Assembly: GCF_014633365.1 (NCBI RefSeq)
Contig: NC_068344.1
Location: forward strand, 4,973,327 to 5,037,326
Direction: 5' to 3'
DNA: 64,000 bases
DNA from: Diospyros lotus
Lineage: Eukaryota > Streptophyta > Magnoliopsida > Ericales > Ebenaceae
Shown: one piece after another, positions 25,472 through 61,766 of the stretch
Layout: each line of letters starts with the position of its first letter
Position numbering within the stretch: position 1 is the stretch's first letter
Position numbers and translations under genes: made by a program
The notes under the pieces: model-generated
Told to the model about the DNA's origin: nothing
Database searches by the model: none
Seen by the model: only the letters and a program-made list of their open reading frames with translations

Positions 25472-28400
25472 TGTAATACCGCGTACTGGCATAAGATTAC
25501 CACGTAATTTCGAGAAGTTTGGGATATCGAAAAATGAGTTTAATAATAAAATAAATCGTTGAATCAACTGTAGGAAATGTCGTGAGGTTGAGATTTCAAG
25601 GGAAAATGATATGTTATTGCTAAGCATTCCAAGATAAGATTTTTAGTATCAAAAGAAATCGGATCGGAGTTAATTTTCGATTAAGCTTCAATTCAGGCTG
25701 AAAACTGAATTGCCGGTAGGGAACGCCTCGGAATTTAGATGTTTAAAAGAAAGGATATATTAGGTTATAGTTGTTTTTAATAAAAGATATTATAGTTTAT
25801 CATGTTAAAAAAAAAAAAAATCAGAATTGCAGCGAGAGGTAGGGCTGCCATAGCTGCTGCAGTCCGTCAAATCAGCAAGCAGGGCATGGGCAAGCCTTGC
25901 ATGCACGTGGGGGTGGTCTCTAGCTCACGTTAACCCTTGTGATTGGTTGAGAGAGGCTCGAATTTGGCTATAAATAGCCGAGTTTTGGTCGAGGGTTTGC
26001 ATCAAAGATTTTACTTCGGATTTCTCACATTTGGGAGTGAATTAGAGGTTGGGGATAAGGGGCTTTTGTTCCCCAGGTTGTGAGAAGCAATTTGAAAATT
26101 TTGAGAGTTTTTGGAGTAGTATAAGGGGTGTTTTCGCATATATATATATATATTCGGTCGCCTCTATATATATACATATTGCATGAGTGTTTAAATCGGG
26201 TTGTAGAGTGATCGATCAAAGGATCTAATAAGGGGCTTTTGGTCGTGAGACTATGGGCAACTAGTCTGAAAATTTTCGTATCAATCGGAGTTCAAATTAG
26301 AGGTCAATTTGGTTCGCCGAAGTTTGATGGCGGGTGGCTTGGGCGGACTGTTTTTGGCCAAATCGAAGGGCTTCTAGTGGTGTTTTCTGACAAAGAAGGG
26401 TACCATTGAGATCGACTAAGGGAGAGGAGCAGCTTGGTGTCATCGTTTCGATTTTTCAGTGTGCTGTCACTGGAAAAGATGATCGAAGGTAATTTCTGTA
26501 TTTTTTAAATACTGAAAATATAAAAAATTTGAGAAAAAACATAATTAAAGGAAATAAAATTATGAAAAATATCCATAAATTCAATAAAAAGGAATAGTTT
26601 ATTTTGATGAATTTTTATCTTGGAAATTTCTTGAGGAGATAATTATTTGATTTCTTGAAAGGAAATGTAAATGGAAAATAAATATGAGGGATTTTTATAA
26701 AATTCTGAGAAAATTCCAGAAGGATAAGGAATTTATTTTATGAGTTTTGGTGATTTTTCATGGAGGATATTCGAAGTAAATCAAGGAGAAATAAATTTTC
26801 TCAAGGAAAAGTAATTATGGAAATTGGAGAAAATAGGAGAAAAATCTGGAAAATTTTCAGAAAATTTCAGAGGCTTATAAATATTTTTTTTATGAATTTT
26901 TTTGGAGAAAAAAATGGAAAAATGCTTGAAGAGATATTTACTTGAAATTATCGAGAGAAAAATAGGAAGAAATTAGAGAAAAATTATGAGAAAATTGAGA
27001 AAATAGATATTGATTTTTCTTTGAATGCATATGATGTCTAGGGTATCGTTGAAACTTGAGGTTGAACTATAGAGCGCCTGGCACGAGAATCAAGCTCGGG
27101 CACGCATTTCGAGGAATCTTAAATTTAGCCTAAAGTGAGTGGTTCTACTGGAAAAACTTGTTTGTGGCATGTGAATGGTTTCCTGTGAGTTGTTCAATCC
27201 AATTTCTGTGCATATTCTTGTTACTTTTGATCACTTTTGATTTATCATGTGTGGTAGGTATCGTGAGATGGTTCGTCTAAATGATTATTTACACACGTAT
27301 TGAATTTCATACGATAAATTGCATACATTGAAATGTTGATTTTATGTTATGCATGTTATGATTTTCGGCATTGGCATGTTATGTGTTGTCCATGTGGGAC
27401 GTGGGTTGTTAACCTGTGACGTGGCCCTTGAGTGACAGCACTCGGGATGCTTGCCGATGATTAATACTATGTGACCCACTTGGGATGGTGCTGAGACGGA
27501 TTTCACTCTATGGTACTCAAGTGGCGGGGCTGAGAGTGGACACCATCCCGGTTGTTGGCTCAAGTGGCAGGGCTGAAAGTGGACACCACCCCAGTTTTCT
27601 TTGAGCAATAGCATTAATACCGATGTGTCTTTGATTCCGGGGATAATGCTGATGTGATACTCTTAGGGCTAGGGTTGCGTTGGGTTTTGGAATGCTTTTG
27701 AGTAGGAGCGTAATGCCTAACAATGATAATGTGGTGATTCCCAAGTTCATATGTTGAGGTTGTCCCTCTTAAGAAGGATTGTGTATGCTAATGGGTCGAT
27801 GTGGTTGTGTCGCCTTTAGAGAGATTGCATTTTCCCCGATTAGGGCTAAGTGCTATGTGGGATTCTCTTAGGTTGGGGCATGTCAGGATTTGTCGATTTT
27901 ATACATGATTTTGCATATATTCATGAAAATATTTTTAAACTATCACTTAGATGATTCAGCATTTAATTTGGACTATGTCCCTGAAATATTCAAACGTTCT
28001 AGGTGAAAGTAGTGGCGCTAAGGGAAATGATGTCATCGAGATGTAGCTATTATGTTTAGTTTTCGTAGGCCTTTGTCTATGATTACGATGTTTAGAGGTT
28101 ATATAATATTTTGATATTTTTATGTGAAGTATCGATTTGGTTATTTAACTATAAAAAGAATTTATCGGTTATATATCATTAAGGTTTCGATTCTTGCTTT
28201 TGCTGATGTGATTGTTAATACCTGTCTTAGTCTGTTAATTTTTAAATTTTGATATGCTGGGAAGGTATAATCAAGATTATCAGGATATGATTATGATGAG
28301 GGTATGTTTATCGAGGAACTTATGTTGTGTGCATGATGTTGAAAAAAAAATATTCCCAAAATCTCGAGGTAATGCGTGTTCTGAAAAGACAGGCGTTACA
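25472..28400 (+). mobile_element. Solo LTR 2 (long gypsy LTR)
   Basis: A 2,929-bp segment beginning TGTAATACCGCG and ending AGGCGTTACA, bounded by the perfect 5-bp direct repeat AGTTT (25467-25471 and 28401-28405). It is a different subfamily from solo LTR 1 but related to the LTR at 40012-42525: the two share GGGAGTGAATT-like, AGGGGCTTTTGG-like, TTTTAGAGAGATT-like and TATTCAAACGTTC-like blocks in the same order. A GGCTATAAATAGCC TATA-like motif at about 25967-25980 may be the LTR promoter. No coding sequence inside is credible. Confidence 0.85.
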
Positions 28401-28990: not shown

Positions 28991-29938
28991 TGTTTGGATG
29001 AATTTGGTGTAAATATTTAATTTGCGTCAACTCCTACACTCAGAAAGTTGCTGGCTTGATGAACATCGACGAGAGACCAGTGACTGCACTCTCACCCTGC
29101 AATTAAAACACAATAAAAATTTTATATTTTTTTATTTATTTAGGCGAGAGGTTTATACTCGTCAGTGTACGAGTGCAGTTGTAGTTCAAATTTAAATTTA
29201 TACTTTCTGGATAAGTCCAGGTCGTCCACTGAGAGATTTATTTATGGCAAAAGAAAAAAAGAATGTCACACACACGCACATGCATTTAGATGGATTGATA
29301 ACATGTTTTTTTATGATTTTTTTTAGATAACAAATACTAGAAAATAAAGCAAGACAGAAGTTGAAATAAATACTGAACGTGAGAATATGAAATTGGAAAG
29401 TACTTGAGTTAAGACAATTTTAGTGCCAACCCGTTGATTCCCAAATATTAGCATAAAAGATTAGCAACATTAATTTAATTTCAGATATGAGGATTTGTTA
29501 TTAAATGCAATTAAAGATAATGATAGCTCTAGTTTAAGCAATCCCCATACATGATATGCGGGATTCTAATTTAAGAAACTACCATAAATTCAATTACAAT
29601 TAATACACAAAACAACTAAATTAATCATCCGGGTTTGGGTATGATAGCGTTTCCAGTTCTAGTAACTCTCATGCGTGACATGAAAGCTCTAAGTTAGGTT
29701 TACGCTCCAATCCAAACCTAGTGATTTTTCAATAATCAAAACACACTCATATTGAAGTTTAAACCAATGTTACTCATTTAAAGCGTAGCTTTCTTTGGGA
29801 ATCATTGGCGTTGGACACTGTCCTTGCCTTAACCCAAGATTAGATTTAGCTACTCATCTCCATTAAATTAATTGACAGGAATTTAAATGACATAATTTAA
29901 ATAACTGAATTTAAATGACAGGAATTAAAATAGAAGAA

Positions 29939-30110
29939 ACTAACCGGCCATTTAGGCGGTAGATAATTAAAATACAAGAATTAAAATTGCAAGAATTTAA
30001 AGGAAGAAACTAACCGTCAATTTAGGCGGTGAACAATTAAATGACAAGAGTGTAAATTGCAAGAATTTAAAGGCAAAAACTAACCGTCCATTTAGGCGGT
30101 GAATAATAAA
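29939..30110. repeat. 70-bp tandem repeat, about 2.5 copies
   Basis: ACTAACCG(G/T)C(C/A) plus ATTTAGGCGGT recurs at 29939, 30009 and 30079, spaced exactly 70 bp, inside the putative Athila LTR. Confidence 0.8.
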
Positions 30111-30388
30111 GTAATAATAAATGACATAAGAATTTAAAAGAAGAAAGGAAGAAAGGAAGAAAGTAAGATCACAAGAGAAAATACTAAAGAAAATGAGAGA
30201 GAACAAAAGCAATTCTCAAAGAGAGAATTCTAAGGAAATAACTAAACTTTGATTCAAGAATAATAATCACTCTTACAAATGCAATCAAGTGATCTATTTA
30301 TAGGCCACAAGATGCAATACAAACCACACAATTTCAATTATTCAACTAGACATAATTATATCTAATGGGCACTCACACACTTAAAGTT

Positions 30389-30545
30389 AAATGGATTTTA
30401 GCTATAATACACACCTAATATTAAATAGATTTTAGCTAAAATACATACCTAATAAAGCACTCATAAAGTTAAATGGATTTTAGCTATAATATCCACCTAA
30501 TAGTTAAATGGATTTTAGCTAAAAAACACACCTAATAAAGCTCTC
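30389..30545. repeat. Degenerate ~40-bp tandem repeat
   Basis: Four copies of a unit around AAATGGATTTTAGCTA followed by CACACCTAATA, alternating with and without an AAGCACTCA-type extension. Confidence 0.7.
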
Positions 30546-30663
30546 ACATACAAAATAAAAATAGATTTCTATAAATTGGTTTTTAATCTTCATTAGGATT
30601 AAAAATAATCCTTGGGCCTTCTCCAAATAATATTTTCCATGGGTTGCTCAAATTGGGCTTTAA

Positions 30664-30816
30664 TTCTTCATGGGCTTGAATTCTTCATGGGTTTGAATTC
30701 TTCATGGACTTTAATTTTTCATGGGCTTGATTTCTTCATGGATTTGAATTCTTCATGGATTTGAATTCTTCATGGACTTTAAATCTTCATGGGCTTTAAA
30801 TCTTCATGGGCTTGAA
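30664..30816. repeat. 17-bp minisatellite, about 9 copies
   Basis: The unit TTCTTCATGGGCTTGAA is repeated head to tail with substitutions (GGATTTGAA, GGACTTTAA). It lies within the putative Athila LTR. Confidence 0.85.
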
Positions 30817-31155
30817 TTCTTCATCCCTAAAAAAAATAATTTAATATTATTAATAAATTATATATTATATATATATATTACATATGGCACACATATATAT
30901 ATATTGGATTATATTATATATATATATATATATATTACATGCATGCATATAATGATGTATATGTATTATATATAATTTTATATATTATTATTATTATTAT
31001 TATTAAATTTTACTTTAAAATTTCATTTTATTCATTTTTCAATTTAAACTTGCATATAACCATAAAATATATATTAATATCTAATTTAAATCATTTTTAA
31101 GATCAAAAGAAGGGTATAATTATAACAAAATTTTTATAAAATTAACCACTAATCA

Positions 31156-32974
31156 TACCCCCCAACTTAAACATTGCTAGTCCCTTAGCAATCAGATTAT
31201 ACACCTGCCAAACTTTATTCACAATAACTGTATGAATGTAAAAATTTCAAATTCGAAACCAAAATGCATAAAATTAAATAAATAATTTAGCATTCTAAAT
31301 CAGATTTTTGGTTAAAGGTCATACAATCTCAGGAATGGAAATTAGGATAACCAACACACAGACTTACTCCCTCGAAGTTTTGACTTCAAATCTCACTATG
31401 GATTTTCTCTCCAATAAAAAGAATTCCTCAGGTGTACACACAAGGGGGTGCACCGTTATAAGAGTAAATGCAGAACAAGTTCAAAACTCGGTGCCATCCC
31501 AAATACAAGGAACGTATTTTCATGAAAAAACAAGGAAATTGACATAGCTTCATGATTGGAATAATGCTCTAGATGAGTAACTTCTGAATTTAAACATGAT
31601 TCCCTACTCCAAACTCGAATTCTGAGATCACATGATTTATAGCATTAAAAGGGACCAGACTGGGTTGTAATGGGGCTATAAGGTTAATACGGGTTGTCAA
31701 AGAAAAGGTAGAGTGTGCAAAGGGTGTGTCGGGATTTTTTTTTTTTTTTTACCATTTCTTTTGAAACAGTTATGCTGAATAGTTAAGAGAATTTCCCCCT
31801 TTTTTTTTTCACCTTTTTTTTTTCTTCTTTTTTCTTTTTTTTTTTCTTTAAATATGAAAATAGATAAACAGACTAATTCTCAAAATCACACCAAACGAGG
31901 GTAACGAAAGAAATTATACTACAAATGGCTCAAATAGGATAGCAAAGGAGGTTAATTTAAAGAAAGAAAAAGGTTTAATAAGCTCAAAATGAAAGAAATT
32001 GATCCCTCTATCATGCTTCTACAAAATGATGATACTCAGTCATCTAATTCAGAGTTTGAAACCAGTCAAACTTATCCGCTATCATACTAGACATTCAAAG
32101 CAAATTGATGTTTTGAAGCCATTGAAAAGATAAGATAAACAATAAAGCATATTTAGAGTAAGTGTTATTTCACTTAGAATTAACAGTTATTAGGCTCAAA
32201 CACTCACTTGGGTAATAGTTTCCACTTCTGTTGAGGGATCATACAGTGTACTAATCAGCTAATTACCGTTACCTTTGACTTTATGACCGATAATCAATTT
32301 TTAAATTTTGAATCCCTGATGAATGCAAATTACTTATTCTAATGCATATACGTTTTCAAATAAGAAATCAATGCATTCATGTTTCGTATTGAAAACTTAG
32401 CCGGCTATCAGTGCATAACTTCAAAGCTTTAGGAATAGCATTATTTAAAACACATAATAATTTTTTTTTTTTTTTTATAAGAGCAGATAAAGATAATCAA
32501 TTCCCACAAGACTACAAACTAGTAATAACAAACTCACAGTTAAATATAAACCAGATGATTCATGACTAAACCTTACACCCCCCAACTTGAATTGCAGTAA
32601 TAAATTAGGGTTGTTAGGAATACCTGTAACTCCACAAGTTCATTTTGCTGTGAACTGCTAAAACTTAAACAACAAATGAGCACACCATATATATATATAT
32701 ATTTATATTTTCATACCAAAATAAAAATTGATGCAAGTCATAAGATAAGCAAAATGCGTCTCAAGAGTACAAAAAGTACTCCTTACTCAGCCATCTTATC
32801 AAAGACTTTGCTAACAACATTCCACAGTTTTGTTTTGTTTTGTTTTTTTTTTTTTGTTTTTTGTTTTTTTAAAGAACACAACCAAGAAAAATTCTGCGAG
32901 TTGTACAATAACTAGATGCGTCTCAAGAGTACAAAAAGTACTCCTCACTCAGCCATCTTAATAAAGAGCATTTC
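31156..32974 (-). other. Athila 3' non-coding region
   Basis: Non-coding sequence between the LOG ORF and the 3' LTR, with long poly-T tracts (near 31735, 31800, 32460 and 32840). It contains polypurine-tract-like motifs on the minus strand at about 31156-31171 and 32577-32590. Two 45-bp direct repeats start at 32754 and 32916 (see findings). Short frames at 31308-31547 and 32676-32915 show no domain. Confidence 0.55.
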
Positions 32975-33634
32975 TCACAGTGATAAATCTAAATTAATCG
33001 GACCCCTTTGGCGCTTGTTACTAATTGCCTTAGACCAGTCTATCCGAGGCTCATGAGGATCGTACTGTGGAACATAAGCATGTAATTTCTCTAACAGCTT
33101 ATCAATGGTGGATGCAGAAATGAGAATCTTTCTTGCTGAACGAGAAATGAACTGTTGGTCCACAGCCTGATCAAGAAAAGAGAGTAACCCATCGAAAAAA
33201 TGGTTAACATTTAAAAGTCCAATGGGTTTGGTATGGAGATTACTCTTGGCCCAGGAGATTATACAAAAGATTTCTTCAAGTGTTCCAAAACCTCCTGGTA
33301 AAGCAATGAAGGCATCTGACTGATAAATCTTACAAGCCATGCGCTCAGACATAGAAGTCGTTTCTATAAGTTGACCGCGTGTAATCCCGGAGATATGTGG
33401 TTCAGCTAAAGGGATTGGCATTATACCTACCACAGATGAATTTCCAAGATGCACAGCTTGTGAAACATAACCATTCAATCCACGACTTCCCCCTCCATAT
33501 ACCAAATTAATTTTTTTCTCTCCTAATTTTTTACCAAGTTCGTTCGCTGCAAGTGCGTAACAAATATCACTCCAAAGTTGAGAGCCACAAAGTACACATA
33601 TGGTTTTAATTTGACGAACGAACTGCCCTTCCAT
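32975..33634 (-). CDS. LOG-family cytokinin riboside 5'-monophosphate phosphoribohydrolase, retrotransposon-borne
   Basis: A 219-residue uninterrupted ORF of normal LOG length. Visible family features are CVLCGS (residues 13-18, Rossmann-like N-terminus), LVYGGGSRGL (44-53), Arg98 in the MSERMACK segment, the signature PGGFGTLEE (113-121), and KPIGLLNV (136-143). Known LOG enzymes release free active cytokinin from its nucleotide in one cytosolic step. One deviation stands out: the usual Met-x-x-Arg-Lys pattern reads M-S-E-R-M, so a conserved Lys is replaced by Met. Ordinary plant LOG genes have several introns and this one has none, pointing to a reverse-transcribed copy. It lies in the pol-to-LTR space of an Athila element, in the same orientation. 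Absence of stops suggests recent acquisition or selection; activity is unproven. Confidence 0.85.
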   Translation of the reverse strand: MEGQFVRQIKTICVLCGSQLWSDICYALAANELGKKLGEKKINLVYGGGSRGLNGYVSQAVHLGNSSVVGIMPIPLAEPHISGITRGQLIETTSMSERMACKIYQSDAFIALPGGFGTLEEIFCIISWAKSNLHTKPIGLLNVNHFFDGLLSFLDQAVDQQFISRSARKILISASTIDKLLEKLHAYVPQYDPHEPRIDWSKAISNKRQRGPINLDLSL

Positions 33635-33654
33635 GTTTGTTCCTTTTGTATGTC

Positions 33655-33759
33655 CTGAAAAGAAGTTTGGAGATCAAAAGTAGCTATACTACAATTCAAC
33701 AAGAAATAAATACAAACAAAAATCTTGCGTATGTATAAGTAGTTGTGATTGTGGCTCAC
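33655..33759 (-). other. Possible 105-nt intron between the Cys-cluster ORF and LOG
   Basis: On the minus strand a good donor (GAAGAT|GTGAGC at 33759) and an acceptor with a pyrimidine-rich lead (TTCTTTTCAG|GAC ending at 33655) sit between the two ORFs, 20 nt before the LOG ATG. Splicing would join a non-coding leader to LOG rather than fuse the two proteins, because the frame at 33798 does not continue into LOG. Confidence 0.35.
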
Positions 33760-33801
33760 ATCTTCCTCTGGTTTTACGTCCAGAAACGGCTTAAACACTT
33801 T

Positions 33802-34347
33802 CTATGAAGCGGGGATAAGCTTCCCATCCAATTTTCTTATAGATTGGCAAACAGGGTCGTTTTTAGTCAGATTCCCAAGACTATAGCGTTGGTGGTCACT
33901 TCTGAACTGGGTCCATAAAGCAAGAAGTTCTCTTTGCACTATTCCACATGGATGCGTCTCAAGAGTCAATCGGATATCATCCAAAGACTCCTTACTCAGT
34001 CCATCCTTTATGAAACTAATTTTATCTTCTCGATTTATGGACGTAAACCCCACAGATTTGCATCGTGTGTTACAGGTCCATCGAGCACATTTGTAACAAC
34101 CATTCACTCTTTTCGCTCTTCTTTTTTTCGCAAAACTACTCTTCCCTAAGCCTGGAAAATGCTTAAAACTAGGTGAAGTTTCACCAGCTAATCGAACTTT
34201 TGCTTCGATCAGCCAACGAATATCTTCAGGGATGTTATTAAGCATCAACAACCTAAGTCTTTCACACCTAGCAACATAAATTTTTTTCAAATCATTCTGC
34301 GGGAGAGATGGATAGTACTTGTGAATTTTTGAGAGATAAAGATCCAT
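33802..34347 (-). CDS. Basic Cys-cluster protein of unknown function in Athila accessory region
   Basis: A complete 181-residue ORF that I do not recognise with confidence. The N-terminal 60 residues are helical-looking and charged. A very basic run KKRRAKR (74-80) is followed at once by a compact Cys cluster, C84-x2-C87-x4-C92-x3-C96, which could bind zinc. The C-terminal third is mixed and ends before TGA at 33802. The basic run plus Cys cluster recalls the small cysteine-rich nucleic-acid-binding proteins of carlaviruses and their relatives; that is a tentative reading of layout, not an established match. It lies 168 bp upstream of the LOG ORF on the same strand, where Athila elements often keep an env-like gene. 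It has no signal peptide or membrane segment, so it is not an env protein. It could equally be a retrotransposon-specific gene. Confidence 0.6.
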   Translation of the reverse strand: MDLYLSKIHKYYPSLPQNDLKKIYVARCERLRLLMLNNIPEDIRWLIEAKVRLAGETSPSFKHFPGLGKSSFAKKRRAKRVNGCYKCARWTCNTRCKSVGFTSINREDKISFIKDGLSKESLDDIRLTLETHPCGIVQRELLALWTQFRSDHQRYSLGNLTKNDPVCQSIRKLDGKLIPAS

Positions 34348-34735
34348 TTTTTTTTTTTTTTAACTATACTAAGAAGAAAGTAAAGAACTATAAATTTTAC
34401 AAAAGGGATGAGAGTACCTGATCGGAGAATAACACAAAGGAGAGAAGACTGAGCTCAAGAAGGGTGGCTTGCCTTATACAGATATGGAGTCTCTTATAGA
34501 GCAATGACCATCACTATTTTACACTCGGCTCGAGGCATGCCATAATTACAGGGTCAGGCTTGGCGTCTCTTTTTCAACGCTTGGTGCCTCATTTTTCAAC
34601 ATTTGGCAGTGTGCCTTATCCTTTATAGGGCAGTGTGATTGCACTGCCCAAGAAAAGATAGCTACCACCAGCGTCAATTCTGTCTCTCAATTCAATTTTT
34701 TTTTTTATATTATTATTTTATTGTTTTTTTTTTAA

Positions 34736-34774
<39 letters not shown>

Positions 34775-35050
34775 TTTTTTTTTTTTTTTGCACAATGGAT
34801 CAGTTTCAAACACCAATAAAATCAAGTACACCTTACCCCCCAACTTAAATTGCGCATTGTCCTCAATCGACAATAAAAAGATAGAAGATAGGCATACCTG
34901 GTGGTCTTCAATGCATGAACTTGTATGCAAAAAATTTTTATTTAGATTGCACACAGAGAAACACTATTTGAATCAAAGTTAATTAAGTAATGCAGAAAAT
35001 GAACAACTTATATATATAATTCTTTATTATTTTATTTTATTTTTATTTTA

Positions 35051-35081
<31 letters not shown>

Positions 35082-35181
35082 TATTTTTTTTAATTTTTTT
35101 TTCAGATCTATAAACATCCATTTAACCTAAATGGAAAGGTGGTCTTTTAACGTCAGATTCCCAGACGATAGGAAACTTTCC
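34348..35181 (-). other. Non-coding spacer between pol and accessory ORFs
   Basis: Carries a third polypurine-like motif on the minus strand (about 34835-34850), a (TAT)n stretch at about 34740-34770 and poly-T runs. The frames at 34639-34954 are translations of these simple repeats. Confidence 0.55.
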
Positions 35182-35484
35182 CTACGCATCAGATGATGAT
35201 GGATCATCTAGATCCACAACTCCTTCATTCTCCTCAACACTACCCTGGTATGGTTTCAACCTATGACCATTGACTGTTAGAAGCTGTCCTGACTCCAGAT
35301 TTTCTATCTCAAATGCCCCATATCCTGAGATGGACTTGATTACAAAGGGGCCGACCCATCGAGACTTCAATTTTCCTGGGAATAGATGCAATCGAGAATC
35401 ATACAAGAGTACCCGTTGCCCTACCTGAAAGCTTTTTCGAATGATGTGCCGATCATGTAACTCTTTCATGCGAACCTTGGCCAA
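35182..35484 (-). pseudogene. C-terminal end of Athila integrase/pol, cut off by a stop
   Basis: A 100-residue frame in the same reading frame as the main pol ORF and separated from it by one TAA (35494-35496). It reads like the post-integrase tail (FQVGQRVLLYDSRLHLFPGK, WVGPFVI, VNGHRLKPY), the usual end of Athila pol, and ends in an acidic Asp/Ser stretch. Confidence 0.8.
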
Positions 35485-35493
35485 TCTTGCATT

Positions 35494-38400
35494 TTAAAAT
35501 GCTTCATTCCGAATTTCTTCAAGTTCATTCAATTGGAGCTTCCTGGATAAGCCTGCTTCAGTTAGACTCTTGTTGATCTTATGAATTGCCCAATATGCTT
35601 TATGCTCAATTTTCACCGGCAGGTGACAAGATTTACTGTATACTAGCCTATAGGGAGACATTCCCAAAATTGTTTTGTAAGCTGTCCTGTACGCCCAAAG
35701 AGCGTCTACTAGTCTTAAGGACCAATCCTTACGATTAGCAGCAACAGTCTTTTCCAATATGCGCTTAATCTCCCTATTGGCTAGCTCGGCTTGACCATTG
35801 GTTTGGGGATGGTATGGTGTTGCAACCTTATGCAGTACACCATATTTCTTCATTAATCCTGCCACAACTTTATTACAAAAATGGGAACCCCCATCACTGA
35901 TGATTGCTCGTGGCATCCCAAATCGACTGAATATGTTTTCTTTCAAAAATTTCACGACAGTCCTATGGTCATTTGTTCTGGCCGGGATTGCTTCTACCCA
36001 TTTGGACACATAGTCAACAGCAAGTAAGATATATTCATGACCAAATGAATTGACAAATGGGCCCATAAAATCCATACCCCAACAGTCAAAAACTTCTAAC
36101 ACTTGGATCGGATGTAATGGCATCATGTTTCTCCTTGACAGACTTCCTAACCTTTGACATCGATCGCAATTTGAACAAAACTTGTACACATCCTTGAACA
36201 GTGTCGGCCAATAAAATCCACTCTGAAAAATTTTTGCAACTGTTTTCTTGACAGAAAAATGGCCTCCACATGCAAGAGTATGACTGAAATTGATAACACT
36301 TTGTTGCTCATGATCGGGTATGCATCTACGGATGATTTGGTCAGGACAATACTTGAAGAGATAGGGCTCATCCCAAAAGAAGGTTCTGACTTTTCTGAAG
36401 AATTTATGCCTATCTTGCTTACTCCAATGGTCTGGGATCAGACCAGTTGCCAGGTAGTTCGCAATGTCGGCATACCAAGGGACAACAGATGATACACGAA
36501 TAACATTCACTTTAAACAGTTGCTCATCAGGGAAATTGTCATGAATTGGTTCATCAAATTGTGTGAGATCTTGACTTGGAATCCTTGACAAATGGTCAGC
36601 CACCACATTTTCTACTCCTTTCTTGTCTCTGATTTCAATGTTGAACTCTTGCAGGAGTAAGATCCATCGGAGCAGACGGGGTTTTGCATCTTGCTTTGTG
36701 AACAAATACTTCAGAGCAGCGTGATCAGTAAAAATGATCACTAGTGACCCTACGAGGTAAGATCGAAACTTGTCCAGGGCAAAGACAACTGCTAGTAACT
36801 CTTTCTCTGTAGTGGTGTAATTCTTTTGTGCCTCATTAAGAGTTTTGCTAGCATAATATATCACATGAGGTTTCTTATCCTTCCTCTGCCCTAACACAGC
36901 TCCTACCGCGTAATCACTAGCATCGCACATAAGTTCAAACGGGAGGGACCAATCAGGGGACTGAATGATAGGTGCTGAAATGAGTGCATCTTTCAATTTA
37001 TCAAAAGCATTTTGACAGGCAGGACTCCATTCAAACGGAACATCTTGAGACAACAAATGGCATAAGGGTCTTGTTATAGTGCTAAAGGAAGCAATGAATC
37101 TCCTATAAAACCCTGCATGTCCCAAAAAACTTCTGATGTCTTTCACATTCCTAGGGATAGGGAGTTTTTGAATTGTTTCAATTTTTGACCTGTCTACCTC
37201 CATCCCCCTAGATGAAACGATGTGCCCCAAGACTATGCCTTGTTTCACCATGAAGTGACATTTTTCCCAATTGAGTATCAGATTTGTTTCCTCACATCTT
37301 GCTAAAACCTTTTTCAGATTCTCCAAACAGGCCTCAAAGTTACTTCCATAAACAGAAAAGTCATCCATAAACACTTCAACAATTTGCTCAACCATTTCAC
37401 TGAAAATGCTCATCATACACCTTTGAAAGGTGGCTGGAGCATTGCATAACCCAAATGGCATGCGCCTGTATGCAAATGTCCCAAATGGACATGTGAAAGT
37501 TGTCTTCTCTTGATCTTCTAGTGCAATTTCTATCTGATTGTACCCTGAGTACCCATCTAAGAAACAATAGTAGGCTTGGCCTGCTATTCTCTCCAGAACT
37601 TGATCCAAGAAAGGCAAAGGAAAATGATCTTTCCTTGTCACAGAATTGAGCTTTCTATAATCAATGCACATACGCCATCCTGTCTGGATGCGCGTGGGAA
37701 TCAGTTCATTGTTCTCATTTTTTACAACAGTGACTCCAGACTTTTTGGGTACTACCTGTGTTGGACTTACCCACTTAGAATCAGAGATTGGGTAAATTAT
37801 TTCAGCATCCAATAGCTTAAGCACTTCTTTTCTGACAACTTCTTTCATGTTGGGATTTAATCTCCTTTGCATTTGCCTAACTGGTTTTGCTCCTTCTTCC
37901 AAGAATATCTTATGAGTACAGATCAAAGGGCTAATACCTTGCAAATCTGAAATGGTCCATCCTAATGACTTCCTGTGTGCTTTTAGAACTTCTATCAGTT
38001 GTTGCTCTTGCTGAGGTGTCAAACTTGAAGAGATCACCACTGGGAATGCTTCCCCTTCTCCTAGAAAGACATACTTCAAATCACTGGGCAATGGCTTTCT
38101 CTCAGGCGTGGACTGATGGCTATCAGGAGCCATGAGCTTACTGTCCAAGTTCCTTAATGGCTCTAAACCAGGCATCCATGTAGGCTTCTCACTTTCTTTG
38201 CTTATGACTTCCACTTCTTTTATTTCTTCAAGATCTTGATTTCCTTCTTTGGGTCTTCTCATGAACTCTTCAAAACAGTCATTGGTCAGTGTTTGGATCA
38301 AGTCTACCTCCTCCACTTCACTCTCAGTGTCCTGATGTTTGGCTACCCTGAAGATATTCATTTCTACAGTCATGTTCCCAAAAGATAGCTTTAACACACC

Positions 38401-40011
38401 ATTCCTACAGTTGATGATGGCATTTGATGTGGCAAGGAATGGTCGACCTAAGATGACTGGCACAGGAGGTTGAGGCCCCTGATGTGGCTGGGTGTCCAAA
38501 ACGATGAAGTCTACTGGAAAGTAGAACTTATCGATTTGTACCAAAACATCCTCCACAATTCCTCGTGGAACTTTGACTGATCGATCAGCCAGCTGAAGGG
38601 TCACTCTAGTGGGTTTAAGCTCACCTAATCCCAACTGTTGATACACACTGTATGGCAACAAATTGACACTAGCTCCTAAATCCAAGAGTGCCCGATCAAC
38701 CTTTTGACTTCCTATGATGCATGTAATGGTTGGACAACTTGGATCTTTGTATTTGGGAGGAGTTTTCAATTGGAGAATGGCGCTGACTTGTTCAGTCAAG
38801 AATGCCTTTTCATGCACATTTGTTTTCCTTTTGACAGTGCACAGATCTTTCAAAAACTTTGCATATGAAGGTGTTTGTTTGATTGCATCCAACAGCGGGA
38901 TGTTGATTCTCACTTGCTTAAACACTTCATATATATCTGCATTTTGTTGCTCTTTTTTCAAATGATTCAACCTTTGTGGAAAAGGTGGTTTGGGCCTGTA
39001 TTGAATTTCTTTCTCATCTTCTTTTTGTTTTTCATTTTTCTCATTTTTTTCATTTTTCTCATTTTTTTCATTTTTCTCCACGGTGGATTCATAATCTTTT
39101 GGTTCTTTTTCTTCATCAACATGTTGGTTTATCCTAGGATCAGTTGGTTTCTCAATTATTCTTCCACTTCTTAGGGCAGTCACTGCTTGCACTTGTTCAT
39201 GAGTGTTGGTTTCACTATTTGAAGCTTCTACCTGGTTGGTTTGCCTAATTGGGTTAGGATTAGTTTGGGATGGAAACCTTCCGGGTTCTCTCACACTCAA
39301 TGTTTGTGTTATCTTGGTCAACTGGCTCCTAATGTCTTCTATGGCTCTGTTTGTTTGGTCTTGATTTTTGACAAGCTGAGCAACCTGATTATTGATACCT
39401 GTTTGACTTTGGATGAACTGGTGCAAGGTATCTTCCAAAGATCTCCTATGAGGAGGTTGGTAAGTATTGGATGAAGAACCTTGATTTTGTTGGAAGGTAT
39501 GTTGTTGTGTAGGGAAGGGAGGTTGAGAATGATTTCCAGAATCATTTCTCCAAGAAAAATTGGGGTGATTTCTATTATTGGGATGGTATGAATTGTAGTT
39601 CTGATTATTCCCATAATAGGCTCCACTCTGATTTTGATTTTGTCTCCCTTCAAAGTTGTGTGAATGATTGTTATTAGTCTGCCCATACAATACCTCCTTG
39701 AAAGCAGGTAGGGTAGGACATTCTTCAGTTGAATGATCTGTTGCATCACACACAACACACTTTACTTCCACTTGATTAACAGATTGCACATTTTTGGGTT
39801 GCATGTTTTCAACTTTCTTTGTTAAAGCAGTTAGTCTTGCATTTAAATCATCACTCTCACTCAGTTGGTATCTCCCTCTAGGTTGTGGATTTTCTCTTGA
39901 ATCAAGAGCAGATGTTGGACCAACTTCCCAGTTCCTTGTATTCTCAGCCAATGTGTCAAAGAAGTGGAAAGCTTCTTCTGGAGTCTTCTCATAGAATTCT
40001 CCATTGCACAT
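35494..40011 (-). CDS. Athila-type gag-pol polyprotein, 5' truncated and with a late stop
   Basis: 1,505 codons. Order: the end of the gag domain (residues 1-30, starting in the conserved MCNGEF motif); CCHC zinc knuckle C85-x2-C88-x4-H93-x4-C98; Asn/Gln-rich linker (about 110-190); (NEK)n acidic repeat (about 313-328); aspartic protease with DLGA at 444-447; reverse transcriptase about 700-950 with [12 protein letters not shown] and the catalytic FMDDF at 881-885; RNase H ([10 protein letters not shown] region); integrase with an HHCC zinc finger, then the three acidic residues in [15 protein letters not shown] and GQAELANRE. The polyprotein would copy and integrate the element. Most domains are intact, which suggests a fairly young copy. 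The gag N-terminal domain is lost at the 40012 junction, and the protein stops before its tail, so the listed Met is internal and not the original start. Confidence 0.9.
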
Positions 40012-42525
40012 TGTAGAAGAAACAACCCTCTAGCGATTTCGAGTTGAAACGAATGAATTTAGGGTCAAAATGAGCAATCGGGCCTAAGTGTAATTTTCCA
40101 ATTTTGTATGAGGGAGATCAAAACGATGGTTTTTCGAAAAGTTTGAAGATGAAATGAAAAGTACTAAACTTGTGGGCCTTAGTGGTATAGTTGGATAGAT
40201 TAGAGATATCATGCAAATGGTAGAAATGACATTTGAAGAAACTTGGGAGTCAAAGTGTAATAAACCAAAGTTTGGCAGTGTGAACGTAAGGAGGAATTCG
40301 GTCGCTACAAATCCACCTCACGTGGAGACTGATTTCGACGATGGGACAACCAAGGGTGACCTAGGCGAGGTAGTATACGGCCGTGGGAAGCTTGGAGGCC
40401 ATGTATCGACCGATGATTAGCCGAAAGGTGGCCAGAATTTGGCTATAAAATGGGGCTGAAACTTCAAGATTTTTGGCATCAAATTAGTCGATTTTGGGAG
40501 TGAATCGAAGGCAAGGGATAGAGGGCTTTTGGTCTCGAGGCATCAAGGATCATTTATGGAGCATTTGGTGTGGTTTGGTGTGCGTTTGAAGGTTATTCGA
40601 AATTGGTCGGAAAAAAGTAAGGCGGATCGCCTTCGCCGCTTGTAACAGCTCGTTTAGGGCACTTTCCAGCGTCCTTTCGGTCAGAGGTTGGTGCAGTTGG
40701 GATCGACTCTTTAAGGGCTTCAAGGGGCTGGGCTCAGATCGGCCATCGAAGCATTCGTCGGCGGCCAAAAATTTGGGGAAGAAGGTGGCGCGTGGCTGTA
40801 AGCGCCACAGTCCACATGCAGCCACGCGCTGAGAGTGTGATGGCGTGTGACAAGGGCTATTTTCGGTATTTCTCTTCCAATATTTAACTTAATTTATTTT
40901 AGGATTTATCATGTTGAAAAATCTGGAAAAATGTTTGAAGAGATAAGTATTTTGGAATTATCGATGTGAAAATTGAGAGAAAAATAGATGAAATTATGGA
41001 AAAATTGAGGAAAATGGATTTTGATGCTTCCTTAATTAAATATGATGTTTAGGGAGTATCGTGGCTCAAGATTGAGTATAAGTTCAAGTGTTTGTGATTT
41101 GACACACAAATCGAGGTAGTGCACGAGGATCGAGGCGATCCAAATACATTCGAGGTGAGTGAATACCCCCAAAACTTCATTTATTGTGGGTATATCTACC
41201 CTAAAAACTTGGTGTTTATGTTACCTAAATGTGTTATGATTTCATGCAAAATGATTTTGTGCATGCAAACGGTAATCAGTGATGGTTGGTTTTATAAGGG
41301 AGGTTCGTCCCTAAACGTTTTGTACTTGTGCTTTGCATTTTATAAAATTTTATTTATATGATGCATTAAATTGTGAAATGTGGCATTGTCTTGTGTTTTG
41401 TGTGTTCGTATGGAATGTCAGTCTAAGATGTTGTCTGCAAAGTGTAGTCATAATTCTCCAAGGGCGTGACGGAATAATAGAGGTATCTTGTGTTGGTGTG
41501 CACGCTAGGATAGCCTCCTTGGTTTTCGTGTTGGGCCGTTTGGTCAGGAAAGTTGCACCAGGATGACTAGATAGTCCATATTGTGTTGTTCATGTGGGAT
41601 GTCAGCTTAGGATGTTGTCTGGATAGTGTAGCCATAATTCTCCAAGGGCGTGACAGAATAATAGGGTATCTTGTGCTGGTGAGTATGCCGAGATAGCCGC
41701 CTTGATTTCCGTGGCAGGCCGTTTGATCAGGGAAGTTGCACTAGAATGACTAGGTGGTCCATGTCAAATTTTGGAGTTGGGATTATGTGGTGGTTCTTGG
41801 ATGCTTAGAGTGGGAACGTAATCTCCAACGTAAATGTGGTGAGCCGGGTTCCTGCGTTGATATGACCCTCTTGGGCTGGGAGTTTGTAACGATTATTCCA
41901 GAGATATTGGAGAAATGCGTTGACTTGCCCCTCTTAAGCTAGAATCGCGTCGTGTCGATGTGTCGGTATGGTGGCATAGCTTTTAGAGAGATTACTCTTT
42001 TTCCATGGTAGGGTTAAGCGCTTGGGATTCTCTTGGGATAGGGCTTACCGGGTGTATTGGTTTATTTCATGTCTTGCATTCATTTATGAAAAATGTGTTT
42101 TTTAACTCTTACTTAGATGATTCATCATCTAATATGGACTTTGTCTCTGGAATATTTAAACGTTCCAGGTGAAGGTAGCACTGCGAAGCGAAAAGGGATT
42201 GCTAAGGAGTGACGCCGATTAATGGATAGTTTACTTTATGTCGTTTTCAATTATGTTGTTAATTTTTAATGACGTCATGTAAACGTTGGTTCAACTTTAT
42301 ATTATGAATAAAGTGCTTTTGATTGTGTCTATTGAGGTTTCGATCTAGCTTCCACATTTGAGATGATGTACCTGTCTTAGTTTATTGATGGTTCATAGTT
42401 GATATACTGAGAATGTGTAACAGGATCTTCGGGGAACGATTTTTGTGATGGGTTTTTATTTGGAAGAAAATTTATATCCCCAGAATCTTATTTTACCTAA
42501 CATCCTGGGAGAGCGGGGTGTTACA
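40012..42525 (+). mobile_element. Third long gypsy LTR, fused to the truncated Athila element
   Basis: Related to solo LTR 2 along most of its length (GGGAGTGAAT, GGGCTTTTGGTC, AGAGAGATTACTC, AATATTTAAACGTTCC in the same order). Its 3' end is GCGGGGTGTTACA at 42525, the family terminus. The 5' end abuts the broken Athila gag at 40012; it starts TGTAGAAGAAAC, poorly matched to the family start, so the first part may be missing. Flanks CACAT and AAATG do not match, so no target duplication supports an intact insertion. Plus-strand frames here are non-coding. Confidence 0.65.
41403..41770. repeat. 184-bp tandem duplication in LTR 3
   Basis: Copies at 41403-41586 and 41587-41770 share TAATTCTCCAAGGGCGTGAC and AGGCCGTTTG(A/G)TCAGG-type blocks. 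Several substitutions show it is not very recent. Confidence 0.75.
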
Positions 42526-45062: not shown

Positions 45063-45270
45063 CTTCATGGTCCTCCCCACTGTTCATGGCCAAGAAGAAA
45101 ATGCTGGCAAGTGCTTCTAATTATAGAGCATTTGGGTATAGTATGAAAATAGATTTGGGTCAATAACTTCATGGTCCTTCCCACTGTTCATGGCCAAGAA
45201 GAAAATGCTGGTAAGTGCTTCTAATTATAGAGCATTTGGGTATAGTACGAAAATAGATTTTGGTCAATAA
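45063..45270. repeat. 104-bp tandem duplication
   Basis: Copies at 45063-45166 and 45167-45270 share CTTCATGGTCCT, CACTGTTCATGGCCAAG and TATAGAGCATTTGGGTATAG with only a few differences. Confidence 0.88.
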
Positions 45271-46031
45271 TTTAGGATTCTTATTCTTGTGCAGTTTCTC
45301 GTTGTTCGTGTTTTTTATTTTGATAGAAAAGATAAATTATAGGTGGAGACTTTGTTTCATTACATAAGACAAGAAGTTAAACTCATGATCTACTGATGTG
45401 AATTTTAACTTATTATGAGTCAATCACTTGACCTGTGTTGAGCACAATTCGAGTCAATAATTTGAACGTCACAAAACGAAAAATATCATACACTAAAATG
45501 GGTCTGGGAGACCCTTTGGCATTTGAACTGAAAATAACCCCACCAAATACCCTCTTCGGATGTGAAAGACATCCAATGACAAGCATTGCAATTTGGACGG
45601 ACGACATTGAGACAGGCAAAATGAATGAGTAGTAGTTGCCAGGCCCATTTTAGTTCACACATTGCTTCTCAAACTGGAGGAGAAAATCCAGACTGCTTTT
45701 CTTTTCTTTTTCTGAGAAAATTTCCCCAACAGTTTCCCGGAAAAGACGTTATCGGGAGGCTGCCCTCTTCGGTTGACATTATTGACTTCATTGCACACTA
45801 AAGTGCTTTCATTTCACATATCTTTACACATTTGCTGCATAAATATAATAATAATATGCATTGTATTTGACTCTCCTTTTGAAGCCACACCCACAAGCCC
45901 AAAGTGACCAGTTTTGAACTAACATTAGTCGGTAATCTAGTGATAGGTGGTTGGTGATAAGTTGAACTTTATGAGTTTCAGTGTATTTTTTTTTTAGGGT
46001 TTTAAGGCTTAAAAGGAAGTAATGATATTAT
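45271..46031. other. Intergenic DNA
   Basis: No domain in the two opposed frames at about 45413-45632. Nothing else recognised. Confidence 0.4.
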
Positions 46032-47432: not shown

Positions 47433-48467
47433 ATGGCTGCCACAACAATGGATCTGACTTTGAGCCTTCAAATCAGCCCCAAAAACCCCCGCGAGCATGG
47501 AGCCATAGTCGAGGAAATCGAAGGGCTTATCAGGGTCTACGAAGATGGACATGTGGAGAGACCCCAGATCGTGCCACTCGTCACCGCCTCTTTGCCGCCT
47601 GAGCTCGGGGTCTCCGCTAGGGACACCGTCGTCGACAGATTCACCAACATTTGGGCGCGTTTCTACATGCCCAAGTCCCGCGGGAAGCCGCTCCCACTGC
47701 TCGTTTACTTCCACGGTGGCGGATTCTGCGTCGGCTCCGCCGCCTGGAGTTGCTACCACGAGTTCCTCGCAGAGCTGGCCGCCGCAGCCGGCTGCGTGAT
47801 CATGTCCTTGAACTACCGCTTGGCGCCGGAAAATCCGCTTCCGGCGGCCTTCGAAGATGGGTTCAAGGCCGTTATGTGGTTGAGGCAACAAGCTTTGTTT
47901 GGGACTGAATACTGGTGGTCAAAGCAATGCAACTTCTCGAAAATCTTCCTCGCAGGCGACAGCGCCGGCGGCAACATAGCCTACAATGTGGCAATAAGAT
48001 TGGCATCACAACCGACGGCGGCGCTAAGCCCGTTTAAGATCAAGGGAACCATTTTAATCCAACCCTTTTTCGGAGGAGAAGAAAGGACTAATTCGGAGAA
48101 GTTCGCGGCGGCGCAGCCGCCACACTCTGCCCTGAACTTGTCGGCTTCGGACACGTATTGGCGGCTGGCGCTCCCTGCGGGGGCCAACCGGGACCATCCA
48201 TGGTCGAACCCAGTGGCGAAAGGGTCGGGAAAATGGGCGGAGCCGAGGCTTTTTCCTAGCATGGTGTGCATATCGGAGATGGATATATTGAAAGATCGGA
48301 ACTTGGAGTTCTGTGCCGCCTTCTCCGGCGCCGGCGCCGAGAAGTCGGAGCATGTGATTTACAGAGGCGTTGGCCATGCATTTCAGATCCTTAATAAGTC
48401 CCTTCTGTCACAATCTCGAACTCACGAAATGATTTCTCATATCAAAGCCTTCATTAGCAGATCATGA
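47433..48467 (+). CDS. Plant class-I carboxylesterase (CXE, alpha/beta hydrolase)
   Basis: An intact intronless gene of 344 residues, the usual CXE length. The oxyanion-hole motif HGGGF lies at 94-98. The catalytic triad is visible as Ser177 in GDSAGG (175-180), Asp284 in EMDILKD, and His315 in GVGHAF. No signal peptide, so it is probably cytosolic. These enzymes hydrolyse short acyl esters of plant metabolites or xenobiotics; the natural substrate cannot be told from sequence. The gibberellin receptor GID1 shares the fold but lacks the catalytic His, which is present here, so this is an enzyme of the CXE type, nearest in feel to the CXE17/CXE6-like group (tentative). It is markedly GC-richer than its AT-rich surroundings, a usual contrast for plant coding exons. 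The long frames on the opposite strand are shadows. Confidence 0.93.
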   Translation: MAATTMDLTLSLQISPKNPREHGAIVEEIEGLIRVYEDGHVERPQIVPLVTASLPPELGVSARDTVVDRFTNIWARFYMPKSRGKPLPLLVYFHGGGFCVGSAAWSCYHEFLAELAAAAGCVIMSLNYRLAPENPLPAAFEDGFKAVMWLRQQALFGTEYWWSKQCNFSKIFLAGDSAGGNIAYNVAIRLASQPTAALSPFKIKGTILIQPFFGGEERTNSEKFAAAQPPHSALNLSASDTYWRLALPAGANRDHPWSNPVAKGSGKWAEPRLFPSMVCISEMDILKDRNLEFCAAFSGAGAEKSEHVIYRGVGHAFQILNKSLLSQSRTHEMISHIKAFISRS

Positions 48468-59029: not shown

Positions 59030-61766
59030 TTATGGATTCTTGAAGTTGGCTTTGTCGCTAAGCTCTTGAAAGGAGCGGACAACGTGCTGAAGCCTGGCGA
59101 CAAATTCAATCAAAAGCGAAGCGAAGGTTGCCAAAGACAAAGCGCTGGCGCTCTGATGACACCCCCACTTCTTTAATTCATCTTCTTCCACCTTTGTCGC
59201 CCCGGCAATAAACGACGACCACAGCTGCGCGGAAGCTTCGCTTTTTGCCGAGGAGTCGACGTCGACCACAGTTTCCCTCTTGTCTTCGTCCTCTCCACGG
59301 CATAATTTCTGGGAATCTTCGAGCTCCTTTGGCTGCTGCTTCTCTGACGAGGATGAGCTCATCAGGAGCTGCGATTTTTGGTCGATTATTCTCTTCTGCA
59401 ACTGTTGCGCTGCTTCGTGCACGTCTTGAAGAATGTCTAGAGGGCTTAGTTTCTCCATCTTCTCCACTTTGTCTCCCAGCTCTCGTAGGACTCTGGCGCC
59501 TTCTACACCAACTCTTTCTAGTTCGCTCGCAAACACCCATCTCTGCTCGGGTGGAGCCTACATCGAACAGATGAATGAATGAAAAGATTGCGTTAAGTAG
59601 TCAACAAGTAACATAAAACTTAATTTGTTAGATCAATGGAGACCCTTGTGATAACATAACTAGAGCAATCAACTCACTCAATTGAAAATGATAAAATGAT
59701 AAATTTATTCTTACTTGTTTGTCAATATACCCTTATTCACTGACCCAGTTGACTAATTGGATCGGGGGCTGAAGGGATCGAACCCAACACTCCAAAAACA
59801 CACCCAACTGCTTGAATCACCACTTCCGTCATTCTTGATGTAGGTATCAATTTTACATCATAAAAATCTCCATGAATATATCCCATTTTCTATAATACTA
59901 TTGTTAATTATTATATATATATATATATTAATTACCTGTATTTCTGAAAGAATGCATCCATGAAGTGCCATAACCATGAAGACACAGTGCCTCAAAGCTC
60001 CGCTTAGCTTCACATAGTTTCTCCATGGATAGTTGAACACTTTGTATCGGCCATGGGGGGGCTCCCAAATTGCAAAACCCAGCTGTCAATTCAACAATAA
60101 TATTTACAAGAATCTATAAATTACCAAAATATCAAAACTCTAAACATTTCACCCATCTTACAAAATATAGAAATATATATATTATGTATATTGTTTATAT
60201 CATATGTATATGTTCATGTTAGGCTATGGTATATTTACTAAAATTGTTATTATGTTTATGTATATATTTTATAATTTAATATAAATTTGAACTGGTAACA
60301 GTAAGTTCAGTATACCTTACCGGATGCGATAAATATTGATAACTATGACTTATCCTGAGAGTTATTTGAACTCTATTTCTAGAAGAGAGCGCTATAATAT
60401 TTTATTATTGGACCAACCCTTCGGGTCTATTAATTTTCTTCTTTTTAAAGATGGTATAGAAAGTAATATGCAAATACATATGATAGATTGACAAATATTT
60501 ATATACCAAAGTCTGCTCGCGGTTTGTAGACTCTAAAACTGATTTGTAAGCAGTGTGAAGGGGATCATGATCAAATGCTTCGTAAGTGACTATTCTTGAT
60601 CTTGAAGGATATTCAAAGCAATTCAGGTACCCGTTAACACAGCCTGATCATCCAAAGTAAACCTTAATTAGTTGTCAAATTTAACTATATTATAAACTTA
60701 AAAAACCAGATCAACTAATATAATCAACTCAATCACATTACTTAATTTGATTCTTAAATCTATCCGGAGCTGTGAACATCAGTAGCTGATCAAAGCGGGT
60801 TCAGAGGAAGTTGCCTAGCATCAAAGAAAAATAGCATGAGAAATTACCCTCCAAGGAAGCGGCAGCATCCCTGAAGTTTCTGACCACCAGCCTGTGCAGA
60901 TCATCGCCGGCCCAAATGGGATAGATGCAAGTATTGACTAAGAAGCAAACGCCGGCACCTACAGCTATAAGCACCAGCCTGGTGACTATTGCCTCTGTGT
61001 AATCTCTACTCCTATTTCCGGCCACCATGAGGATACAATACGTCATCACGAAAACCCGAAACCCGTATTCGTACGGCAACATTGTCGGGTACAGCTTCAA
61101 ATAGGCTGCAACTAACCCTATTACCAAAAGAATGCTGTCAAAATTTTAAACTCCAAATTTTAAACACGATTTATTATTATTATTATTACTGACCGATTAT
61201 GAAAATGCTAGCTACAATTACGACTTTTTCCCAGGGACCAGAGAGTGTAGCTAGCTTTGCAAAGCCAAAGGCGATGGCTCCCGCAAAAATTGTCCCCAAC
61301 CCGCGATTAAATCCTTTGATTAAAGTTGCTCCTGCATGAGAAGGGAAAAAAGGCCTGGAATGTAGCTAAATTTATGGTTAATTCGATTGATGATTGCATT
61401 AATGCAAAATTCAATTTTAACCGAATAATGCAGCTTCCATGCAAGGTGATGCATGGTACCTATGCTGAACTCGAACATGACGACAACGGTGAGGATTGCC
61501 CAGATGGCATACTGTGAAAGTTCAGGGAACAAATCCACCCAGAATAGGAGGAGGGACACAACGGCTAGCGCCAGCCCCATCTTGGCGGCGAAGATGACTT
61601 TCCTCCGATCAGACCGGCCCATTTCGAGCACTTTCCCGGCGTAGTCCTGCAACTCATTACACAGTCTCGTTGCTTCCCGGCGAGCTGACGGGAAACCCAT
61701 CATCAACCTCCAGCTTTCCCAGCCACAATATTCTCCGAAGCCGGCCAGCAACCTGTCCTTGCTCAT
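59030..61766 (-). CDS. Aluminum-activated malate transporter family anion channel (ALMT9-like clade)
   Basis: Six exons on the minus strand with GT-AG introns in compatible phases: 61766-61460, 61331-61194, 61117-60848, 60643-60507, 60082-59936 and 59557-59030, giving 508 residues. The N-terminal half is membrane: hydrophobic segments near residues 57-77 and 82-103, then four more in exons 2-3, ending at the conserved [10 protein letters not shown]. The C-terminal half is cytosolic, with the family WEP motif (AIWEPPHG), [26 protein letters not shown], and a long Ser/Glu-rich helical tail. This is the complete ALMT domain layout. The sequence resembles the vacuolar ALMT9/4/5/6 group, which move malate or chloride across the tonoplast; exact substrate and membrane are inferred. 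The N-terminus is shorter than in ALMT9. The start ATG follows directly on an (AT)n microsatellite. Confidence 0.93.

Follow-up and report, generated by a model that had tools for sequence, protein, structure and literature searches.

The 64,000-nucleotide stretch of Diospyros lotus DNA analysed here (the window, G000:C7:4973327-5037326, within a 630-Mb assembly of this asterid of the Ericales, to which all genome searches refer) probably contains the 3' portion of a decayed member of a young family of Athila-type retrotransposons that carries two selected accessory genes, one encoding a virus-type protein, NABP, and the other a protein derived from the cytokinin-releasing enzyme LOG. Read 5' to 3' on the minus strand, the element remnant presents pol, NABP, LOG, two RNA hairpins, a polypurine tract and the 3' long terminal repeat (LTR) (Table 1). 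An earlier note on this DNA had proposed that an intact, intronless LOG gene is carried by an Athila retrotransposon, collinear with pol and between pol and the 3' LTR, and both the gene and its place were borne out. The 219-residue protein is encoded by one uninterrupted minus-strand frame, the plus-strand frame at 32975-33634 being full of stops; it matches PF03641 (E 3.8e-33) and PF18306 (E 3.3e-11) and contains the motif PGGFGTLEE. Among proteins it matches best, at 99%, one of D. lotus, the nearest solved structures are At2g37210 (AtLOG3) and At5g11950 (AtLOG8), and the LOG fold is predicted with confidence (mean pLDDT 86). The NABP frame, the C-terminal LxLxL tail of the LOG-derived protein and the RNA hairpins, all described below, were absent from that note.

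The pol frame contains protease, reverse transcriptase (RT), RNase H and integrase domains, as identified by a Pfam scan. It is closed by an in-frame TAA at 35494-35496, beyond which about 100 further codons are open, and the copy must be regarded as degraded because the element lacks its 5' part from about position 40011 on; past this position the sequence showed no match to 5' pieces taken from three other copies, except for 151 bases at 75%. The copy is not whole, its 5' part being gone and pol interrupted; both accessory frames, that of LOG included, are open. The family shows the RT-RNase H-integrase order, LTRs beginning with TG and ending with CA, a polypurine tract, 5-bp target duplications and an extra reading frame 3' of pol, the LTR, tract and duplication features being present in all six copies inspected on both sides. 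No Pfam match to a chromodomain or to a second RNase H was found in the pol proteins; a second, archaeal RNase H (aRH) is the defining feature of the Tat lineage, according to the available text of PMC6317226.

Some details of the remnant and its borders may be recorded here. Two related stretches, 40012-42525 and 26883-28012 (74-76% alike in parts), flank it, and the former, which ends with GGGGTGTTACA, abuts the broken 5' end of gag-pol. The stretch 40012-42525 resembles a Tekay-type LTR read on the opposite strand. The core of the polypurine tract, AAGTTGGGGGGT, recurs at 34835-34846, in the gap between pol and NABP, and at 32577-32588, 3' of LOG; these copies are possibly additional primers of plus-strand synthesis or remnants of a stepwise gain of genes. 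The 3' LTR contains tandem repeats at 29892-30146 and 30620-30857, with units of about 70 and 17 bases.

The element family is young, present in high copy number in D. lotus, and, by its domain content, of the Athila type within Ty3/gypsy. A first look at the genome yielded 1,125 LOG candidates, and the best 150 of these cover residues 1-218 or 1-219 at 96-100% identity, with 143 of the 150 free of stops, figures that come from a ranking by protein score and hence from an unfair sample of decay. A query with the relative P0124 uncovered further subfamilies at 77-79% to P0124, of which ten loci were read. NABP adjoins LOG in 50/50 loci of the window family and in 10/10 loci of two further subfamilies; the LOG frame is open in 48/50 and 10/10 of them, respectively, and the NABP frame in 45/50 and 7/10 (52/60 together). 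The LTR pairs of the six copies inspected on both sides are 98.5-99.9% identical in aligned stretches and the 5-bp target duplications are perfect in 6/6, one such two-LTR copy being 13,996 bases long. Near-identical LTRs together with perfect target duplications imply that the accessory genes were transposed with the element, and recently. Thus, the alternative that LOG is an independent retrocopy that had merely landed here is countered by the 60 copies and by the six with both ends. When the host LOG7 of D. lotus (P0287) was used as a query, the 150 scored places showed 48-51% identity and at most 206 bits, many of them already among the LOG copies listed above, and none encoded host LOG7 itself in a single exon. 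This would fit a host LOG7 gene that is split by introns.

Both LOG and NABP evolve under purifying selection. Within the window family, the pN/pS ratio is 0.31 for LOG and 0.33 for NABP (1,225 pairs each), and pairs with pS above 0.03 give 0.26 for LOG (450 pairs) and 0.20 for NABP (213 pairs). Between subfamilies, the dN/dS ratio in six pairs is 0.21-0.31 for LOG, at dS of 0.13-0.28, and 0.14-0.20 for NABP (Fisher p <=6e-4 throughout), far from the value near 1 that the earlier note had named as refuting its reading. LOG is very probably a selected accessory gene of the element.

The active site of the LOG-derived protein is nevertheless not that of an ordinary LOG. In CgLOG, Arg99 and Glu122 are catalytic, Met96, Lys100 and Glu121 belong to the adenine pocket, Met96, His97, Lys100, Glu125 and Trp129 form the prenyl pocket, and alanine changes at crucial binding or catalytic residues nearly abolish activity, as far as the available text of PMC4979012 goes. 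At the five prenyl-pocket positions the window protein has Met, Ser, Met, Cys and Trp, and its catalytic Arg is R98. Among 119 LOG-like sequences (P0121-P0240 minus P0230 and P0231, plus the window), Arg99 is retained in 114, Glu122 in 115, Glu121 in 115 and Trp129 in 117, and the PGGxGTxEE motif is kept in the clade. In contrast, Lys100 is found in only 9 (otherwise Ile in 40, Met in 36, Leu in 32 and other residues in 2), Glu125 in 9 and His97 in 53, whereas all seven residues are retained in 121/121 host LOG sequences. The changed pocket weakens the case for cytokinin release, and the proposal that the element encodes an enzyme releasing active cytokinin is not supported as it was stated, the pocket Lys being replaced in 110/119 sequences. 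We lean towards an active phosphoribohydrolase of some kind, but it seems doubtful that cytokinin nucleotides would remain its main substrate. The D. lotus element-type gene P0121 has been annotated as an ordinary LOGL10 despite its changed substrate pocket, which should serve as a warning to annotators.

The C-terminus is distinctive as well. An LxLxL motif not more than 3 residues from the C-terminus is present in 94/119 LOG-like sequences and 0/121 host sequences, as compared with 2.7% of shuffled tails, and the last 20 residues include a basic patch in 106/119 and 1/121, respectively. In D. lotus copies of the window family, PINLDLSL is found in 50/50 and the catalytic Arg in 48/50. Residues 207-219 are predicted to be disordered (pLDDT <50), as would be expected for a short binding motif. 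LxLxL is one of the two types of EAR motif, a plant repression signal, according to the available part of PMC6479872. The LOG tail is about as likely as not to be a working EAR motif.

Elements or genes of this kind are not confined to D. lotus; the search of the same genome and of other plants that the earlier note had suggested found further element copies in the former and LOG-like relatives in the latter. The best 120 of 7,871 LOG matches include relatives in Xanthoceras, Reevesia, Populus, Diplodiscus, Pterospermum and Rehmannia, in clusters of up to 327 sequences, and the full-length ones, at about 50% identity, have nearly invariant active-site columns. NABP has 527 relatives, the 120 listed among them including sequences from Populus, Orobanche, Xanthoceras, Acer and Rhamnella and all 120 matching PF01623. 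The plants with LOG and NABP relatives are presumably asterids and rosids. Three Orobanche gracilis gene models fuse NABP with LOG in a single protein, which in one case ends with DPLDLSL. Contigs of equal size appear in both lists of relatives in 4 cases at sizes of at least 1.5 kb, that of P0208 included (shifted controls: mean 0.6, largest 2); among contigs below 1.5 kb, co-occurrence was not above chance (5, against a mean of 3 and a largest value of 7). Viral contigs contained no relatives of NABP, searched as a single sequence and as an alignment, and none of LOG as a single sequence, while the LOG alignment found 20 distant matches only, at 28-47% identity.

All 34 LOG-like sequences in a careful 47-sequence tree form one clade apart from 13 host sequences, with support of 100/100 from a bootstrap that had not fully settled, on hand-chosen sequences (34/119 LOG-like, 11/121 host, AtLOG3 and AtLOG8). 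A quick 127-sequence tree, from which 7/119 LOG-like sequences (fused models or fragments) and all but 12/121 host sequences were left out, agrees with this clade (SH-aLRT 78). The earliest branches within the clade are P0183, P0221 and P0208, in which the pocket Lys is still present; P0183 and P0221 are putative element genes, classed here by sequence. Since P0208 already has the LxLxL tail, the simplest order runs from a host-like protein through gain of the tail to loss of the pocket, and loss of the pocket Lys needs only one change on the 47-sequence tree. We infer that LOG entered the element once, as a spliced mRNA copy, gained its basic and LxLxL tail, and later lost the pocket Lys, with the catalytic Arg and Glu and the phosphate loop retained.

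NABP, the second accessory protein, matches PF05515 with 35.4 bits (cut-off 23, E 1.4e-8) and PF01623 with 21.1 bits (cut-off 20.9, E 3e-4); of four relatives scanned, all passed the former threshold and three the latter. It has a basic motif followed by four cysteines, as in the NABP or cysteine-rich proteins of carlaviruses. Yet, it is longer (181 residues) and borne by a retrotransposon, and its cysteine spacing of x2, x4 and x3 differs from the C-x2-C-x9-C-x4-C zinc finger of the potato virus H protein, as given in the available text of PMC3689765. A structure model of NABP was set aside as too poor (mean pLDDT 59). By analogy with its carlavirus relatives, NABP probably either binds RNA, for which the repeated hairpin is a candidate site, or influences silencing or transcription.

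The hairpin pattern CTGAGTRAGGAGT...ACTCTTGAGACGCAT occurs 3 times in the window and in 0/100 shuffles, and has 894+783 = 1,677 exact matches in the genome, compared with 0+0 for the reversed pattern. The three hairpins have the internal-loop sequence in common and differ at the tops of their stems. Hairpin A lies within NABP, where it encodes the strongly conserved DGLSKESLDDI..TLETHP, and 74/77 hairpin columns are invariant between subfamilies (five sequences), against 248/327 gap-free flank columns. The pattern gave 0 matches in viral contigs, and a scan of 30000-36000 matched no Rfam family, the single match, at E 0.37, being far below the cut-off and taken as chance. NABP and LOG are probably made from spliced subgenomic mRNAs, with candidate splice sites 5' of both that are conserved among copies.

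How might the element profit from these genes? The LOG-derived protein, with its changed base pocket, would be a nucleotide phosphoribohydrolase or a nucleotide-binding protein, working in the nucleus and recruiting TOPLESS-type corepressors through its tail, and hormone chemistry or transcription would be pushed towards a cellular state that benefits the element; control of the host cell state may be the simplest theme common to NABP and its LOG-derived partner. In the most far-reaching form of this proposal, which we consider unlikely, an asterid and rosid retrotransposon lineage would have made a nuclear effector of a hormone enzyme it had captured, with a changed-pocket nucleotide domain and a TOPLESS-recruiting tail, while NABP would bind the element's own repeated RNA hairpin, and the parasite would reprogramme host development or defence as a pathogen does.

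Another possibility, the reading of the earlier note and a rather unlikely one, is that the protein is a working LOG enzyme, through which the element would free active cytokinin from its nucleotide form and so stimulate the expressing cells to divide. The predicted LOG fold, the retained catalytic Arg and Glu and PGGxGTxEE, and the pocket Lys of the basal P0208 and P0183 groups agree with it, but in the window protein the pocket Lys, Glu and His are replaced by Met, Cys and Ser, respectively, activity of CgLOG was nearly lost on alanine changes at crucial residues, and the tail points to a further role. Conversely, the LOG domain could be non-enzymatic, serving as a nucleotide sensor or as a scaffold that bears a nuclear repressor tail, as retention of the tail with loss of the pocket Lys and Glu would suggest; this is distinctly unlikely, for catalytic Arg and Glu, still present in 114/119 and 115/119 sequences, would be needless in a mere scaffold. 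That both genes are functionless passengers, open only because the copies are young, is highly improbable: the LTR identities of six copies do indicate recent insertion, but dN/dS of 0.21-0.31 at dS of 0.13-0.28 between subfamilies argues otherwise, as do the full-length relatives in other plants, whose identity is about 50% and whose active-site columns hardly vary.

Several points weigh against the view of a selected pair of accessory genes in an Athila-type element with a changed LOG. The Athila label follows the earlier note, domain content and sequence features rather than a phylogeny, and most LOG-like sequences from other species are putative element genes. Ranking of LOG copies by protein score lowers the within-family dN, with a smaller effect between subfamilies and for NABP. 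The aligned sequences are related, so that the counts are not independent and Fisher values for these contrasts are not usable as probabilities; the host controls are mostly LOG7 orthologues and hence narrow, although AtLOG3, AtLOG8 and B. subtilis YvdD agree with them at the pocket. The terminal LxLxL is absent from 25/119 LOG-like sequences, some being fragments or fused models and some near misses. As for the hairpins, folding of hairpin B was matched or bettered by 23/200 shuffles, and the synonymous sites of hairpin A show no significant slowing relative to the rest of NABP (p 0.5).

The presence of LOG in Athila-type elements has already been reported. Steinbauerova et al. reportedly described two Athila-like elements with similarity to LOGL4. 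A YgdH (LOG-type) domain has also been seen in consensus sequences of Gypsy elements from two Citrus species and from Populus trichocarpa in a study that cites Steinbauerova et al. for an earlier report of this domain (PMC9289625, the only relevant paper on LOG found in the literature searched). Like the present family, these are eudicot Ty3/gypsy elements with a LOG-type domain; unlike there, multiple copies with both LTRs are described here in a new host, and the NABP partner, LxLxL tail, pocket change, hairpins and selection go unmentioned in the available text of that paper. No earlier report of the NABP partner, the tail or the pocket change was found in the open-licence literature, from which subscription papers are mostly missing, and none of the hairpin either, which as such was looked for in Rfam and sequence collections rather than in papers. 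With AtLOG3, AtLOG8, host LOG7 and CgLOG the element protein has fold, length, catalytic Arg/Glu and PGGxGTxEE in common, but it differs from true LOGs in the replaced pocket Lys, Glu and often His, in its basic and LxLxL tail and in its single exon. The AlkB RNA demethylase of Phalaenopsis Gypsy elements is likewise an acquired enzyme domain proposed to help the element against its host, yet it is a different enzyme, limited to orchids in that screen, and its activity was demonstrated in vitro (available text of PMC9289625). Similarly, the pathogen effectors HaRxL21, Jsi1 and PopP2 have an EAR-type motif, and two of them bind TOPLESS, to go by the titles of the papers; those are microbial effectors, whereas the motif here belongs to a retrotransposon protein.

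For most extra reading frames of plant LTR retrotransposons, neither function nor origin is known. In this family, two recognizable, co-inherited and selected accessory genes, of which one is viral in type and the other comes from hormone metabolism, are common to asterids and rosids, which makes a retrotransposon's gain from acting on its host open to direct test.

Table 1. Features of the element remnant in the window.
Feature	Position	Strand	Remarks
LOG-derived reading frame	32975..33634	-	219 residues, intact; open-frame listing and Pfam
C-terminal tail of LOG-derived protein, KRQRGPINLDLSL	32978..33016	-	basic patch and LxLxL (EAR-like)
NABP reading frame	33802..34347	-	181 residues; basic motif and C-x2-C-x4-C-x3-C; Viral_NABP PF05515, Carla_C4 PF01623
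RNA hairpin A, within NABP coding sequence	33951..34005	-	folding z -3.05
RNA hairpin B, 3' of LOG	32915..32957	-	folding z -1.07, no better than shuffles
RNA hairpin C, 3' of LOG	32753..32795	-	folding z -2.32
End of gag and pol	35494..40011	-	1505 residues open; terminated by in-frame TAA
Open stretch 3' of pol stop, resembling integrase end	35182..35493	-	no chromodomain or other Pfam match
Candidate splice donor GATCAG^GTACTC, 5' of NABP	34412..34423	-	exact in 48/50 copies, 1 variant, 1 absent
Candidate splice acceptor, 5' of NABP	34369..34379	-	sequence only
Candidate splice acceptor ACTTCTTTTCAG^GACA, directly 5' of LOG ATG	33651..33666	-	in 50/50 copies
Polypurine tract adjoining 3' LTR	31157..31168	-	
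3' LTR, TGATTAGTGG...GCAGTCA	29081..31155	-	ends set by comparison with two-LTR copies

Elsewhere in the window, one intact frame at 47433-48467 on the plus strand, probably a host gene, encodes a 344-residue carboxylesterase of the alpha/beta hydrolase 3 family, and 59030-59536 on the minus strand holds a fragment, or one exon, of a gene for an aluminium-activated malate transporter (PF11744). A stretch of about 104 bases is duplicated in tandem at 45063-45273, the two copies being 95-96% alike.
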